The notes beneath the pieces were generated by a model, which had not been told where the DNA came from, made no database searches, and saw only the letters and a program-made list of their open reading frames with translations. Below, piece after piece: positions 3,337 through 10,158 of a stretch of DNA of 64,000 nt (position 1 is the stretch's first letter; each line of letters begins with the position of its first letter). This DNA is from Rhizobium anhuiense. GTDB lineage: Bacteria; Pseudomonadota; Alphaproteobacteria; Rhizobiales; Rhizobiaceae. The translations under genes and the position numbers were made by a program. The stretch covers positions 124,001 through 188,000 of the forward strand of contig NZ_ML133529.1 in the NCBI RefSeq assembly GCF_003985145.1, given 5' to 3'.

Positions 3337-5844
3337 CTATGCCGCAGCGGTTCGACGAAGCGTGTCCGTTTCCGCCAATTGGAACTGATCGATCAATTGG
3401 AGGAGTATCCTCGTCTCGTCGGCAAGTTCCTTCGTCGCCGCGCTGGTTTCCTCGACCATGGCCGCATTCTGCTGCGTCATCTGGTCCATCCGGTTGACGG
3501 AAGAATTCACTTCATGAAGGGCGTTATACTGCTCTCTGCTCGAGCGGGCGATCACGTCCATCTGCCCGGAGGCTGTGACCACTTTCGCCGAAATGCTTTC
3601 GAGGACTTCGCTCGTTTCGCGCACGACACGCGCTCCATTGGCAATCTCCGTCTGCGAACGTCCGATGAGCTGTTTGATCCTTTGGCCGGCCTCCGCGGAG
3701 CGCTGGGCGAGCTCGCGCACTTCCTGGGCCACGACCGCAAAGCCCTTTCCGGCCTCGCCGGCGCGGGCCGCTTCGATGCCGGCGTTGAGCGCAAGCAGGT
3801 TCGTCTGAAACGCGATTTCGTCGATGACGCCGATGATTTGAACGATCTCGTCGGACGCCGCTTCGATCTTGCTCATCGCATCGATAGCACTGGCGACGAC
3901 CTGGGATGACGAATCGGCCGCCTGTTTGGTGTCGGTGATGATCTGATGGGCGTCATCGGCGCAGGCTGCAGACGAACGAACCGTCGTGGTGATTTCTTCG
4001 ATGGCTGCTGCAATCTCCTCGAGTGCGACGGCCTGTTGTTCCGTGCGCCTTGCTAGATCGCCCGCGGCGAGATCCATTTGCCCGGCATTGCCTTCGATCA
4101 TCCGGGTGTTCGTGCGGATCTGGTCGATCGTTTCCTGCAGCCGTAGCAGCGACGCGTTGAAATCGTTGCGAAGCTGCTCCAACCGTCCGAAAAAGGGTGT
4201 CGCGATCGTCTGCGAAATGTCGCCCTGCGCCAGTCGACCGAGACCCTGTGCCAGTGCCGTCACCGCGAAGTCTATCTGCTCTTCGACCGCGCGTTTTTCC
4301 TCATCGTTGCGATGCCTTTCCTCTTCGGCCTTCGATCGCTCGATCTCGCTGCGCTCCTCGATCTCGACCTTGGCGATGGCATTGTTCTTGAATACGCCGA
4401 GCGCGCGGGCCATATCGCCGATTTCATCGGCCCGGCGCTCGCCAACGATTGATGTTTCGAGCTTGCCATCCGCCAGGCGCCTCATGGCCGAGGTGATCTG
4501 ATTGATCGGGCCCTTGAGCGTCACGGTCAGCCCGACGCCTGCGAGGATCGCGATCACCACGCCGAGGATTGTCGTGCCGAGAGACATCGAGTTGGCGTCC
4601 GTGCGTTCGTCGGCCGCGTTCTGCCGCTGCATTTCGGCGAAAGCCGTCAGTTGAGACCACATCCCGTCCACGTCGGCGGCGGCCGAACGGAATTCCTCCT
4701 GGCGCTGTGCGCTGATGTGGACGAGGTCCGCGGCAGCCTCCTGCATCTTGTCCAGCGCCGGCAGAAGCTTCGATTTGAGTTTGTCGAACTGCGCAACGCT
4801 GCCGGCGTTGGAAATCAGCATGTCCAAGCCTTTCCTGACAGCGGTAATTTCCTGCGAGAGTCTCTGAAGATTGGCGTCCGTCGGCGCGAGCGTCAGTTTG
4901 GCCATGACGATCTGAATCACGTAAGCCGACGTGATCAGTTTCTGGCCGTCTCTCTGGCTGGTCTTAGCGCGCTCGACCGGCTTGGCAATCTCGGCCGCCT
5001 TTTCCGTTGCCGCCTTCACCCGCCGTGCGGCGGCCGCCTGCAATTCAGGCAGTCTGCCGACGATCTGGCCCATCGCATTGCTGAGGCCGGCTGCGCGTTC
5101 CTCGGTTTGACCGGTGGCCTCGACAAGCGGCTTCAAGGAAACAATGGCGTCGTCGATCGCCTTTTTGGCCTCCGGCGCTTCGCCGGCCAGCGCCATCGCC
5201 AGGACCCGCTGCTGCCGGCCGAGTTCTTCCATGTCAGGCCCGCCGATACCGGCGGCGGCTTGAACCTTGTCGTTAAACGCCTGGGCGAAGGATAAGAAAT
5301 CGGAAATACGCTGCGCGTCGCCCAGCATGTTGCGTGCTTCGTCCTCCTGGCTGTCGGCAGCCCGCTGAAGAACCTTGGTACCTTCGACGATATCCGTCTG
5401 GGACGACACGACGACGCTCAATGCCTTCTGAAGATCGATGAGCAGCGCCGCCCGGTTCTCCTGAAGTCGCCAGAGCGAATCCATGCGGGTTGAAATTCCG
5501 TCGATGGAGGATTGCGCCTGCTCGAGCTCCTGCTGACCGCTGCGATCGGCGGCGAGCTTATCGATGCCGGCTTTCAGAAGGGTGCGTTGATCGGCAAGTT
5601 TTCGGGTGACGACATCCCGGTTTTCTTGCGTGGCATTGGCGAGGAACTCGCCCATCGCGGCCGACAAATCCCGAAAGCCGCTCAAGGACTGCAGGACGGA
5701 ATTTGAAATATCCATCCGCCCCTGGAGCAGGCTCGACGCATAAAAACCTGTCGCGCCCACGGCCATGATGCTCAAGACGAACGGAATGATGAACACCATT
5801 ACCTGCGTCTGGATTCGAACGCGTGACAATAGCCTTCCCAACAT
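3337..5844 (-). CDS. methyl-accepting chemotaxis protein
   Basis: An 835-residue transmembrane chemoreceptor. One membrane segment lies near residues 13-35, then about 380 residues of helical sensory domain, a second membrane segment near 420-445, a HAMP region (446-500) with a second HAMP-like stretch, and the cytoplasmic signalling hairpin around residue 700 ('[40 protein letters not shown]'-type core). The C-terminus lacks an NWETF-like CheR pentapeptide. A strong ribosome site (GAGGAGGG) precedes the ATG. No che genes are nearby, so it is an orphan receptor. Ligand unknown. It converges with the FAD oxidoreductase gene, leaving only about 40 bases. Confidence 0.93.
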
Positions 5845-6815: not shown

Positions 6816-7544
6816 TCACGCGAAACCGATTTCCGCTAGCAGAGGCAGGTGGTCGGAGGCGACTCTTGTCAGCCGGTTTTCCAGGACCGCCGCCTGTTTG
6901 ACGATCAGATCCTCGGTAACGAAGATGTGGTCGAGGCGCATCAGCGGGTAGCGGGATGGAAAGGTCGCTCTCGGCGCGTTGCTGCCTGCGAGTTGGGCGT
7001 CCTTTAATGAGCGCGCGGCAAGTCGGTAAGCCGCCGACGACGGAATGGCGTTGAAATCGCCGCAAAGAATGCTGGGAAGCGCTTCGTCCGCCGTGCCGCG
7101 CAGCCAGCCGGAATTCAGCAGTGTCGTCATCTGCCGGATACGCTCGCGGCCGCGAAGGCCGAGATGGGTGTTGACGACCAGCAGTTTTCGGTCGCCGACC
7201 AGTATTTCGACGGACAGCGCTCCGCGCTGTTCGCCGATGGATGGCAGCGGGCCGGCCTTGACCGCGCCTGTCGGCAGCGCGGTGATGATCGCGTCGCCAT
7301 ATTGCTCCTCGGCAACCGACAGCGCCGGATGGAAATGCGCCTGCATCTTCAGCAGCGAGGCAATCATATGGGCCTGGTCGACGCCGCCGGTCCTGCGCCT
7401 GAGGACATCGACCTCCTGAAGCGCGACGATATCGGCCCCGGCCTCGGCGATGACGGAAGCGATGCGGCCGGGATCGAGCTTCCGGTCGCTGCCGAGACAA
7501 CTGTGCACGTTATAGGTCAGAAGTTTGATCGATTTATCCGGCAT
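6816..7544 (-). CDS. endonuclease/exonuclease/phosphatase-family protein (YbhP-like)
   Basis: 242 residues of the EEP superfamily (metal-dependent phosphoester hydrolases). It shows the family blocks in order: 'LLTYNVHSC' at the N-terminus, 'IVALQEVD' (metal-binding Glu), 'VVNTHLGLRG', 'LCGDFNAIP' and the terminal 'ASDHLPLLAEI' with the catalytic Asp-His. The start at 7544 (Met-Pro-Asp-Lys) is preferred because upstream in-frame codons translate the repeat/hairpin region. In E. coli, ybhP (EEP), clsB/ybhO (phospholipase D family) and ybhN are neighbours; here the same three families are adjacent. A promoter-like motif on the minus strand (7630-7654) suggests stress control. Substrate unknown, possibly a lipid phosphodiester. 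Confidence 0.85.
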   Translation of the reverse strand: MPDKSIKLLTYNVHSCLGSDRKLDPGRIASVIAEAGADIVALQEVDVLRRRTGGVDQAHMIASLLKMQAHFHPALSVAEEQYGDAIITALPTGAVKAGPLPSIGEQRGALSVEILVGDRKLLVVNTHLGLRGRERIRQMTTLLNSGWLRGTADEALPSILCGDFNAIPSSAAYRLAARSLKDAQLAGSNAPRATFPSRYPLMRLDHIFVTEDLIVKQAAVLENRLTRVASDHLPLLAEIGFA

Positions 7545-7576
7545 TGGCCCCGCTGAAAAGCTTGTTCCCTCCGGGA

Positions 7577-7644
7577 GAACACGGAACTCGTTCCTCCCCA
7601 GGGAGAACATAGAACGTGTTCTCCTTGGGAACACAGAACTCGTT
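7577..7644. repeat. 16-bp direct repeats flanking a long palindrome
   Basis: GAACACGGAACTCGTT (7577-7592) recurs as GAACACAGAACTCGTT (7629-7644), 15 of 16 bases identical, 52 bases apart. Between them is the hairpin at 7597-7629, whose loop contains another GAAC. The set lies in the control region between the EEP-family gene and the YbhN-like gene. Confidence 0.7.
7597..7629. promoter_or_regulatory. 13-bp inverted repeat (hairpin) in shared control region
   Basis: CCCAGGGAGAACA and TGTTCTCCTTGGG pair at 12 of 13 positions around a 7-base spacer. There is no T-run, so it is not an obvious terminator. On the minus strand it would lie in the 5' untranslated leader of the EEP-family gene; on the plus strand it ends inside the -35 element of the next gene. 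Confidence 0.6.
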
Positions 7645-7652
7645 TGATCGTT
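7628..7652 (+). promoter_or_regulatory. EcfG-type promoter for the YbhN-like gene
   Basis: GGAAC (7628-7632), 16 bases, CGTT (7649-7652): an exact match to the alphaproteobacterial general-stress (EcfG/RpoE4) consensus, 46 bases before the ATG at 7699. Confidence 0.65.
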
Positions 7653-7654
7653 CC
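7630..7654 (-). promoter_or_regulatory. overlapping minus-strand EcfG-like promoter for the EEP-family gene
   Basis: On the minus strand GGAAC (7654-7650), 16 bases, TGTT (7633-7630). It overlaps the plus-strand motif almost completely, because the site is nearly palindromic. One mismatch to CGTT. Confidence 0.45.
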
Positions 7655-7698
7655 AGATCATCGAGCCGTCGCGCTCGCATCTCGGAAACGGACAATCG

Positions 7699-8661
7699 AT
7701 GAGCTTGAAAAGCGTAATCTGGAATGGACTGCTCATGGCCGCGCTTTGCCTTGCGGTCTTTCTCCTCTATCGGATCTTCCAACAGTATAGTCTCGAGCAG
7801 ATCGTCCAGTCGGTTCGCAGCATTCCTTTTTCGACCTTCTGCACAGCCCTTCTGTTTGCGGCGGCATCCTATCTGTGCCTCAGCTGTTTCGATCTGCTGG
7901 CGATCCGTTCGCTCGGCAAATCCTTGCCCTATTCCAGGATAGCGCTGACTTCATTCATCAGCCTGTCGCTCGGCCACAATATCGGCTTTGCCGGCCTGAG
8001 CAGCGGCGCCTTCCGCTATCGTTTCTATTCTCGCTGGGGGCTGACGGCGGAGGACGTGGCGAAGGTCATACTGTTTTGTGGCGTCACGGTGGGGTTGGGG
8101 CTGATCACGCTTAGCGGTCTCGCGATGATCGTCAATCCCGGTGATGCTGGGCGTCTGCTGCGCATTGATCCGGGGAGTGTGCGCATCTTCGGCGCGGTGG
8201 CGCTGGTCGTGCCGGTTGTCTATACGGGCCTGGCGTTCTTCATCCGCGGCACGTTGCGGCTGTGGCGCTGGTCGTTTCAGCTGCCGCGATTTTCGACCGC
8301 GGTCGCGCAGGTCGGGGTCGGGACGCTCAACTTCATGCTCGTCTCCGCCTGTCTGCACCAGATGCTCTCGGCCTTTGGCGACGTCGCCTTTTTCCGGTCG
8401 GTGACGGCTTACGTGCTCGCCAATTCGGCAATTCTCGCAACACATGTTCCGGGCGGCCTCGGCGTGCTCGAGGCGACCGTTTCCTATGCCGTGCCGAAGG
8501 AGGCCTCGATCGGCGCGCTGATTGCGTTCCGCTGCGCCTATTTCTTCATCCCGCTGGCGCTCGGATCCACGCTTCTCGTCATCAGCGAGATGATCTTCCG
8601 GCGGAGATCACGCCGGCCGGATGAGGAGGCGGACGAGCGCGCCGAGGCCCAGTCGGTCTAA
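7699..8661 (+). CDS. YbhN-like integral membrane protein (lysylphosphatidylglycerol synthase TM-region family)
   Basis: 320 residues with about eight hydrophobic segments, of the UPF0104/YbhN family related to the flippase part of MprF. Family-type stretches include 'SLGHNIGFAGLSSGAFRYRFYSRWGLT' (about 92-117) and 'LATHVPGGLGVLEATVSY' (about 248-267). It probably moves or binds a lipid in the inner membrane. It lacks the aminoacyl-transferase domain of true MprF. The 3' end overlaps the convergent phospholipase-D-family gene by 54 bases. An exact GGAAC-N16-CGTT promoter upstream suggests general-stress control. Confidence 0.85.
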   Translation: MSLKSVIWNGLLMAALCLAVFLLYRIFQQYSLEQIVQSVRSIPFSTFCTALLFAAASYLCLSCFDLLAIRSLGKSLPYSRIALTSFISLSLGHNIGFAGLSSGAFRYRFYSRWGLTAEDVAKVILFCGVTVGLGLITLSGLAMIVNPGDAGRLLRIDPGSVRIFGAVALVVPVVYTGLAFFIRGTLRLWRWSFQLPRFSTAVAQVGVGTLNFMLVSACLHQMLSAFGDVAFFRSVTAYVLANSAILATHVPGGLGVLEATVSYAVPKEASIGALIAFRCAYFFIPLALGSTLLVISEMIFRRRSRRPDEEADERAEAQSV

Positions 8662-10104
8662 GGGTGCGAAGGGTCGAACCGGGTCGAAGAGCCCTGTGCC
8701 TGTAATCGGTGAAATGCTGCCCGACAGCGCAACGGTGAATTCTCGCAAGCCCCGAGGCCCGTCATTGAGCGCATCGACCGCAGCGATGACCGAGCCGCTT
8801 TGCGCAAAGGCTGCGGCAAAGCTTTCGGGTTTGGTTCCGAGATATTCCGAAAGCAGGCGATTGCCCAAATCCGCGATTGCGCCGCGGTGCTCGTCATTGC
8901 CAGCCTCGAACAGCATGTCGCATTCGCAATCCAGCCCTTCCGAGCGATTGTTGAGGTTGGAGGAGCCGATGCGGACCAGTTCGTCATCGGCGATTATCAG
9001 TTTGGAATGGACGAGCACCTCCACCTCGCCGTCCTCTCCCGGCGTGACCGCGTAATAGACGCGCAAACGGCCGGCGCGATCGGCGCGTTTGAGGCGGCGG
9101 ATGACGCGGTCGCGATTGCCGCCCATGACGAGCTTTTCGATCAGTCCGTGAGAACTGCGCGTACAGATGATGACGACCTCAGGCCCGTCTTCCTCCTGCA
9201 GCCGCGCGGCAATGGCGTCGGCAACGCGGAAAGAGGCGAGATATTGCGCCTCGATGTAGAGCTGCCGCCGCGCGCGGGCGATGACGTCCAATGTCATGGC
9301 GATGCCGTCGCTAATGCCGGGGCGAAGTGCGGTCGAAGGCTCCGTCAGCGCGAAGCTGACCGCAACCTCCCTCATGGAAATGGCGAGATCGTCCGGCCAG
9401 ACGAAGCGGATATTTTCGGCCAAAGGCAGGTGGATCTCGCCGGTGGCATTTTCCCAGCGCTGCCTGGCGATGTCGCCGATCAGCCTGGCGGCATCGCCGG
9501 TGACCATTGCCTGAACGTCGTGCAGCGGATCGTAGGAAACGCCCTCCGGGTCGCGCCGCAGTTTCTCCTCGGCGCGATGGCGCCGGGTATCCCATCGCCG
9601 CGACGTCAGGTCTATGCCGCCGATGAAGGCGACGGCGTCGTCGATGCAGACGAGTTTCTGATGGTGGCAGCCGCGCAATGTCGGTTGAAGCTCGAAGCGC
9701 AGATCGATCCGTGCATTCCTGGGAAAGTTCTTCTTTCGCAGCACCTGCAGGGATTTCTCCGAATAGATCGGCCCGAGCGTCCAGATGAGGATGCGTATTT
9801 CAAGCTTGGGATTTGCCGCGGCCAGGGCATGCAGCAGATCGGCCAATGTTTCGTCGGATTTTTCCGGTTGCATCCGGATGTCGGGATTGAAATCCCATCC
9901 GATGATCCAGACGGTGCGCCGCGCCTGCCGCAGCACGCGCGCCAGTTCGGCGAAATAGCTGTTGCCGTTGATCAGGAAGGCTGCCTTCGCCGCGCTTCCT
10001 TCCAAGCGCAAGGCGCCGCCCTCCTGTTTTGGGCGGTCGCCTGGTCGTTGTGATTTTGTCTGGGGCAAGTTCGGGTCATTGAAGATGGTTTCGAATGTCG
10101 TCAT
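8608..10104 (-). CDS. phospholipase D-family protein (cardiolipin synthase B-like)
   Basis: 498 residues with two HxK(x)4D motifs: 'HHQKLVCIDDAVAFIGG' near residue 150 and 'HSKLIIADDELVRIGSSN' near 363, both intact. No N-terminal membrane segments are present, as in ClsB rather than ClsA. Likely activity: transfer or hydrolysis of phosphatidyl groups, possibly cardiolipin synthesis at the inner membrane. GAGG upstream supports the ATG at 10104. A perfect minus-strand GGAAC-N16-CGTT motif lies 30 bases upstream. Neighbours (EEP family and YbhN-like) match the E. coli ybhPON gene group, which supports a role in envelope lipid handling during stress. Confidence 0.88.
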   Translation of the reverse strand: MTTFETIFNDPNLPQTKSQRPGDRPKQEGGALRLEGSAAKAAFLINGNSYFAELARVLRQARRTVWIIGWDFNPDIRMQPEKSDETLADLLHALAAANPKLEIRILIWTLGPIYSEKSLQVLRKKNFPRNARIDLRFELQPTLRGCHHQKLVCIDDAVAFIGGIDLTSRRWDTRRHRAEEKLRRDPEGVSYDPLHDVQAMVTGDAARLIGDIARQRWENATGEIHLPLAENIRFVWPDDLAISMREVAVSFALTEPSTALRPGISDGIAMTLDVIARARRQLYIEAQYLASFRVADAIAARLQEEDGPEVVIICTRSSHGLIEKLVMGGNRDRVIRRLKRADRAGRLRVYYAVTPGEDGEVEVLVHSKLIIADDELVRIGSSNLNNRSEGLDCECDMLFEAGNDEHRGAIADLGNRLLSEYLGTKPESFAAAFAQSGSVIAAVDALNDGPRGLREFTVALSGSISPITGTGLFDPVRPFAPLDRLGLGALVRLLIRPA

Positions 10105-10133: not shown

Positions 10134-10158
10134 AACGCCTGGAATATTTTTGGGTTCC
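10134..10158 (-). promoter_or_regulatory. EcfG-type promoter for the phospholipase D-family gene
   Basis: Minus strand reads GGAAC (10158-10154), 16 bases, CGTT (10137-10134), an exact consensus match, 30 bases before the start codon. Confidence 0.65.

Follow-up and report, generated by a model that had tools for sequence, protein, structure and literature searches.

We found that a 27-bp site with mirror-image ends, located between two divergent genes of Rhizobium anhuiense, probably serves EcfG, the general-stress sigma factor of the RpoE4/RpoE2 type, as a bidirectional promoter. One of the genes encodes a YbhN-like membrane protein and the other encodes an EEP-family protein, and both lie in the stretch of 64,000 nucleotides that was analysed (hereafter, the window). 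The two-way reading is based on the sequence of the site, its spacing, its conservation and a series of controls, and we infer the identity of the sigma factor, the transcription starts, the relative strengths and the mutual exclusion of the two directions. Two-way promoters as such are known. An EcfG promoter in which the -35 and -10 elements are exchanged at the two ends was not seen among the open-access literature matches listed, and the titles and abstract beginnings of the full-text matches listed contained no two-way EcfG promoter.

The motif recognized by sigma-EcfG1 of R. etli is GGAAC-N16-CGTT (PMC3892343), and the same motif is found in stress-induced transcription units of this species (PMC4167512). 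A flexible -10 element of EcfG has been reported for Sphingopyxis (PMC7083833). In Escherichia coli, the bidirectional promoters of sigma-70 are pseudo-symmetric, share a -10 element and give divergent mRNAs; the most frequent distance between their starts is 18 bp, and distances of 10 and 23 are also common (PMC12825309). According to the same source, opposing polymerases cannot bind together at these promoters, and competition occurs only when one direction is substantially activated (PMC12825309).

Three sources supplied the YbhN loci: a contig search (40 loci), 148 genus genomes, and 297 family genomes, with YbhN present at an E-value of 1e-60 in 55 of the latter. The genus set consisted of 30 loci, of which the 29 besides the window were used, and 60 partly overlapping places, which were a part of all the places found; 55 non-genus places were taken in from the family set. 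Including the window, this gave 185 rows, and 154 remained after the rows identical from -120 to +100 were dropped. An EEP-like match was divergent in 129 of these rows and codirectional in 11, and the other 14 had no EEP in the available stretch. Two divergent rows, L228 and L233, were set aside, as their EEP matches are only 27-30% identical and neither has the site; thus, 127 divergent loci were studied. The search pattern for the site demanded GGAAC and CGTT, and did not demand the CC that follows CGTT in the window.

The original prediction had placed a near-palindrome, with GGAAC-N16-CGTT on the plus strand and GGAAC-N16-TGTT on the minus strand, between divergent YbhN-like and EEP-family genes. 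In our pattern search of the window, both matches were recovered at exactly the predicted positions, GGAACACAGAACTCGTTTGATCGTT on the plus strand (7628-7652) and GGAACGATCAAACGAGTTCTGTGTT on the minus strand (7654-7630), each with a spacer of 16, and the gene coordinates and Pfam domains agree with the predicted location (Table 1). A single 27-bp GGAAC-N17-GTTCC in the EEP/YbhN gap is common to the two matches. In the YbhN direction, the site agrees with the EcfG motif in all respects (GGAAC, CGTT, and a spacer of 16-17); in the EEP direction, the GGAAC and the spacer of 16 agree, and the -10 is TGTT, not CGTT. Each end combines a -35 of one direction with a -10 of the other, and no -10 is shared by the two directions: at the left end, the -35 for YbhN would overlap the -10 for EEP, and at the right end, the -10 for YbhN would overlap the -35 for EEP. 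The plus-strand -10 is 46 nt from the ATG of YbhN, and the minus-strand -10 is 85 nt from the ATG of EEP. Across 3.4 kb, plasmid NZ_CP098804 is 99.9% identical to the window.

Table 1. Coordinates of genes, predicted promoter elements and neighbouring repeats in the window
Feature	Position	Strand	Remarks
EEP-family protein (Exo_endo_phos, PF03372)	6816..7544	-	Pfam; start as annotated in R. anhuiense NZ_CP098804
Three degenerate 26-bp repeats resembling the promoter half	7568..7645		Third repeat overlaps the promoter
13-bp inverted repeat beside the promoter	7597-7629		Would fall largely within the EEP mRNA leader
Mirror-image promoter site (predicted), GGAACACAGAACTCGTTTGATCGTTCC	7628..7654	both	27 bp, GGAAC-N17-GTTCC
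Predicted -35 GGAAC, YbhN-directed	7628..7632	+	7630-7632 inside the minus -10; intact in 124/127 divergent loci, GG decayed in 3
Predicted -10 TGTT, EEP-directed	7630..7633	-	Spacer 16
Predicted -10 CGTT, YbhN-directed	7649..7652	+	Spacer 16; 7650-7652 inside the minus -35; exact R. etli EcfG1 motif (PMC3892343, available text)
Predicted -35 GGAAC, EEP-directed	7650..7654	-	Outer two bases are the plus-strand CC, 7653-7654
YbhN-like membrane protein (LPG_synthase_TM, PF03706)	7699..8661	+	Pfam
PLD-family protein (PF13091 and PF00614), possibly cardiolipin-synthase-like	8608..10104	-	Pfam; convergent neighbour of YbhN
Predicted one-way EcfG-type PLD promoter, GGAACCCAAAAATATTCCAGGCGTT then TG	10134..10158	-	EcfG-type site in 39/40 loci

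The site is highly conserved where the two genes are divergent. GGAAC-N16/17-CGTT followed by CC was found in 124 of the 127 non-identical divergent EEP/YbhN loci, window included, and these 124 intact loci contain 79 distinct site sequences. The CC is present in every divergent locus with the plus site (124/124), and CGTTCC is present in all 127. The spacer is 16 in 79 loci and 17 in 45. Most spacer columns hold 0.1-0.8 bit, and the columns adjoining the elements are higher, up to 1.84 bits; 121 of 124 loci have a T immediately before CGTT, and the second base after GGAAC reaches 1.63 bits in the spacer-16 sites. The YbhN proteins of these loci are about 40 to 100% identical to that of the window. 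The mirror is not limited to the genus: it also occurs elsewhere in the window's family, in other genera, including Sinorhizobium meliloti 2011, in which the same dyad is located at 100523-100550 of pSymB. The S. meliloti genes SMb20091 and SMb20094 (PMC6180224, PMC10880074, in the portions available) may lie near the EEP/YbhN cluster, and the available portions of PMC3616915 and PMC3188799 do not mention the genes of the cluster. At the order level (249 genomes, 15 with YbhN at an E-value of 1e-45), the mirror was absent from the 13 non-genus loci.

These observations might also be explained if only the YbhN promoter were real, the CC being an extended -10 or a feature of the leader, and EEP were served by another promoter. 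The two -10 elements are indeed unequal: the plus -10 never departs from CGTT in the 127 divergent loci, and the minus -10 across the 124 intact loci is TGTT in 73, GGTT in 39, AGTT in 10, and CGTT in only 2. The CC itself, however, is rare at EcfG-like sites elsewhere. The window's own genome contains 179 matches to GGAACN15-17CGTT, of which 90 were examined and divided by a simple codon-usage gene caller into 36 in genes, 33 promoter-like, and 21 neither. Of the 33 promoter-like sites, 1 has CC after CGTT, compared with 6 of the 57 others; the single promoter-like case (L282) is a dyad between S49-peptidase-like and mntH-like genes. In the 40 loci of the contig search, the PLD promoters have CC in 0 of 39 cases, with TG in 38 and TT in 1; L069 has a further EcfG-type match that does carry CC, but in another place, at -108. 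According to the annotation of NZ_CP098804, PLD and a DUF763 gene are also arranged divergently, and the one-way site sits in their gap; thus, divergence alone does not make a mirror. A plus EcfG site is present in 8 of the 14 YbhN loci that lack EEP, and the CC is missing in 7 of these 8 (GG, GG, GA, GA, GC, TA, and TC). The remaining locus, L129, retains the CC without EEP, as would be expected if the CC served YbhN; a distance of 0.06 changes per column separates it from its closest relatives.

The same alternative is difficult to reconcile with three divergent loci (L195, L234, and L236), in which CGTTCC and the AAC are kept and the GG of the plus -35 is lost; in all three, the -35 that faces EEP is retained as GGAAC. 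In the case of codirectional EEP-YbhN pairs, no dyad was found within 300-350 bp upstream of YbhN in 11 loci (10 from the family set and L078), nor in the same interval in 8 order-level loci. We also considered an EcfG promoter in front of the codirectional pairs, and rejected it because no clear pattern appeared: GGAAC-N15-18-[CT]GTT occurs within 300 bp of EEP in 3 of 11 loci, one of them being a dyad (L218).

The association of the CC with a divergent EEP is strong when loci are simply counted (Fisher p 6.8e-11, which ignores relatedness). The tree of 151 YbhN proteins, obtained by a quick method with long-branch warnings, leaves only three independent pairs, two in the expected direction and one without difference (sign test p 0.5), and the Fisher value is therefore not proof. 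The YbhN loci without EEP belong mostly to one paralogous clade, and the loss of the CC without EEP amounts to only two changes on the tree, which are few events.

Some loci depart from the arrangement in the window. Among EEP loci in which YbhN was lost (L241 and L243) or left as a remnant (L242 and L244), the dyad is kept in 4 of 5; L240, in which EEP directly follows PLD, has no site. In L242 and L244, the C-terminal part of YbhN alone adjoins EEP, an apparent gene loss that left the dyad standing. In L218, EEP and YbhN are codirectional, and the dyad is 74 bp upstream of EEP with no YbhN on its other side. In G111, YbhN is apart from EEP, the plus -35 is TGAAC, and GTTCC is intact. Given these exceptions, the symmetry does not depend strictly on having both genes; it may outlast one partner gene, or may help the promoter that remains. 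The EEP-only loci and L218 also leave room for another cause of the symmetry, as a promoter for YbhN alone would imply. Weighing the rarity of the CC elsewhere and the three loci with a decayed plus -35 against these points, we consider a promoter for YbhN alone to be unlikely.

We think it very improbable that a dimeric transcription factor uses the dyad (GGAAC-N17/18-GTTCC) as its operator and that the site is not two sigma-factor promoters. An inverted repeat with conserved ends and a mostly free middle does resemble an operator. Half-sites of a dimer would, however, be expected to keep a fixed distance, and the spacing shifts by one base among lineages; a spacing of either 16 or 17 is easier to reconcile with a sigma factor than with a rigid dimer. 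Furthermore, one half of the dyad equals the known EcfG motif (PMC3892343, available text), the YbhN genes without EEP retain GGAAC-N-CGTT mostly without the dyad, and the PLD gene carries the same motif as a one-way site.

Returning to the predicted two-way promoter, the bare pattern is no commoner than chance, and the sequence alone is weak evidence. GGAACN{15,18}GTT gave 3 matches in the window versus 4.1 expected, and GGAACN{16,18}GTTCC gave 17 dyads in the window's own genome versus 36 for the reversed control pattern. The more specific GGAAC-N16/17-[CT]GTT occurs only three times in the 64 kb, as the two mirror matches and a site 29 bp upstream of the PLD start. Caution about chance is needed because CGTT is the reverse complement of the AACG in GGAACG, and the CC alone is enough to give an existing plus site a minus counterpart with a relaxed -10. 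The case for the predicted promoter is carried by position and conservation, not by pattern counts.

With the simple gene caller, 15 of the 17 dyads in the own genome could be placed; 8 of them fall within predicted genes, and 2 separate the starts of nearby divergent genes, namely the EEP/YbhN site and the S49-peptidase-like/mntH-like site. A second EcfG mirror site, with CGTT in both directions, was observed at L116:1501-1528 in an S49-peptidase-like/mntH-like gap (gene names assigned by eye). The plus half of the S49/mntH-like dyad is kept in 6 of 18 relatives and its mirror in 0 of 18, and for this reason we do not claim that mirror sites are a general rule of the genome. A chance dyad retained by common descent at the EEP/YbhN site, with a functionless minus direction, would be in keeping with the fate of this second dyad. 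Such a dyad also asks for no more than a CC behind an EcfG site already in place, and the frequency of CC in -60 to -1 of the YbhN genes studied is 0.077, site included. Shared descent does not explain the invariant ends, however, because most spacer positions vary widely in the same loci; the YbhN proteins, as noted, range from about 40 to 100% identity to that of the window. We give this explanation hardly any weight. The comparative data (the motif match, the retention of both half-sites, and the rarity of the CC elsewhere) are thus consistent with the two overlapping, divergent EcfG-type promoters that were originally proposed.

A NepR anti-sigma gene is a hallmark of the EcfG stress system. 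In the window's own genome, a profile search found one NepR match above the curated cut-off (C14:167453-167554), and a phyR-like gene, recognized by eye, is about 1 kb from it. Also about 1 kb from NepR, a GGAAC-N18-GTTCC dyad (L122; C14:166279-166306) was observed between phyR-like and histidine-kinase-like genes (named by eye), each of which is encoded on the minus strand; read on the minus strand, it is GGAAC-N17-CGTT.

We examined other features of the intergenic region as well. The 26-bp repeats and the inverted repeat beside the site (Table 1) differ in length and form across species. A hairpin in the EEP leader was rejected as a conserved RNA element, since in the Rhizobium loci that were folded (genus and contig-search loci) the leaders range from 22 to 94 nt and the folds differ. 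The region was likewise rejected as a dispersed repeat, its best non-self match in the own genome having an E-value of 0.275, and Tandem Repeats Finder reported nothing in it. In L040, the mirror promoter is separated from YbhN by a dispersed repeat of about 100 bp (3855-3965), for which the window's own genome contains 58 matches; the YbhN leader is stretched to about 150 nt, and the promoter is intact. A similar insertion was seen by eye in L043.

If the site works as predicted, EcfG-RNA polymerase would sit on it in one orientation at a time and would give either the YbhN mRNA or the EEP mRNA, with expected starts at about 7658-7662 and about 7620-7624, respectively. The YbhN direction would be the stronger one because it has the consensus CGTT, the EEP direction having TGTT here. 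From geometry only, one polymerase would exclude the other because the two sites overlap fully; competition, if any, would be expected under stress, as EcfG is released then. With the second, one-way EcfG promoter in front of PLD, all three genes of the cluster would be under the general stress response. We suggest, tentatively, that the nested pair has been kept by selection in the window's family as an either-or switch; each binding of EcfG-polymerase would then yield just one of the two stress mRNAs, which would tie their ratio and set them in competition under a strong response.

The elements and spacing of the site are like those of EcfG (ECF15) promoters such as those of R. etli sigma-EcfG1/RpoE4 and S. 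meliloti RpoE2; unlike these, which are treated as one-way in the available text, the site in the window carries both orientations (PMC3892343). It resembles the sigma-70 two-way promoters in its pseudo-symmetry and divergent genes, and differs from them in having an ECF motif, in exchanging -35 and -10 at each end, and in its expected starts about 36 bp apart (PMC12825309, available text). In the hrpL-hrpJ region of Pseudomonas syringae, an ECF site is likewise located in a divergent region, and its occupancy affects the opposite gene; however, hrpL-hrpJ has an ECF promoter beside a sigma-54 promoter, and not one site with two orientations, as far as the available text describes it (PMC5263251).

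If our reading is correct, bidirectional promoters, described for sigma-70 with its shared -10, would extend to an ECF sigma factor. The geometry would be different as well, with shared base pairs that are a -35 in one orientation and a -10 in the other. Two added bases would suffice to make an EcfG promoter two-way, because CGTT is the reverse complement of AACG and so overlaps the end of GGAACG; this nearly self-complementary consensus would explain the origin of the pair by two base changes. Since positions 7653-7654 belong to one direction only, the site would be a clean test bed for promoter competition in the general stress response. Judging by Pfam domains and gene names, the EEP, PLD and YbhN genes of the window may be the counterparts of ybhP, clsB (ybhO) and ybhN. 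The enterobacterial cluster has the same three kinds of protein and likewise has a link to a general stress sigma factor: in E. coli O157, ybhPO is listed as RpoS-controlled, with values of 251/7 (PMC2907692, available text). In Salmonella, ybhP-clsB-ybhN is one operon (PMC9241728, available text), whereas the window has divergent and convergent genes with predicted EcfG-type promoters. If the genes are true counterparts, both groups would have the same set under the general stress sigma factor, each through its own arrangement.
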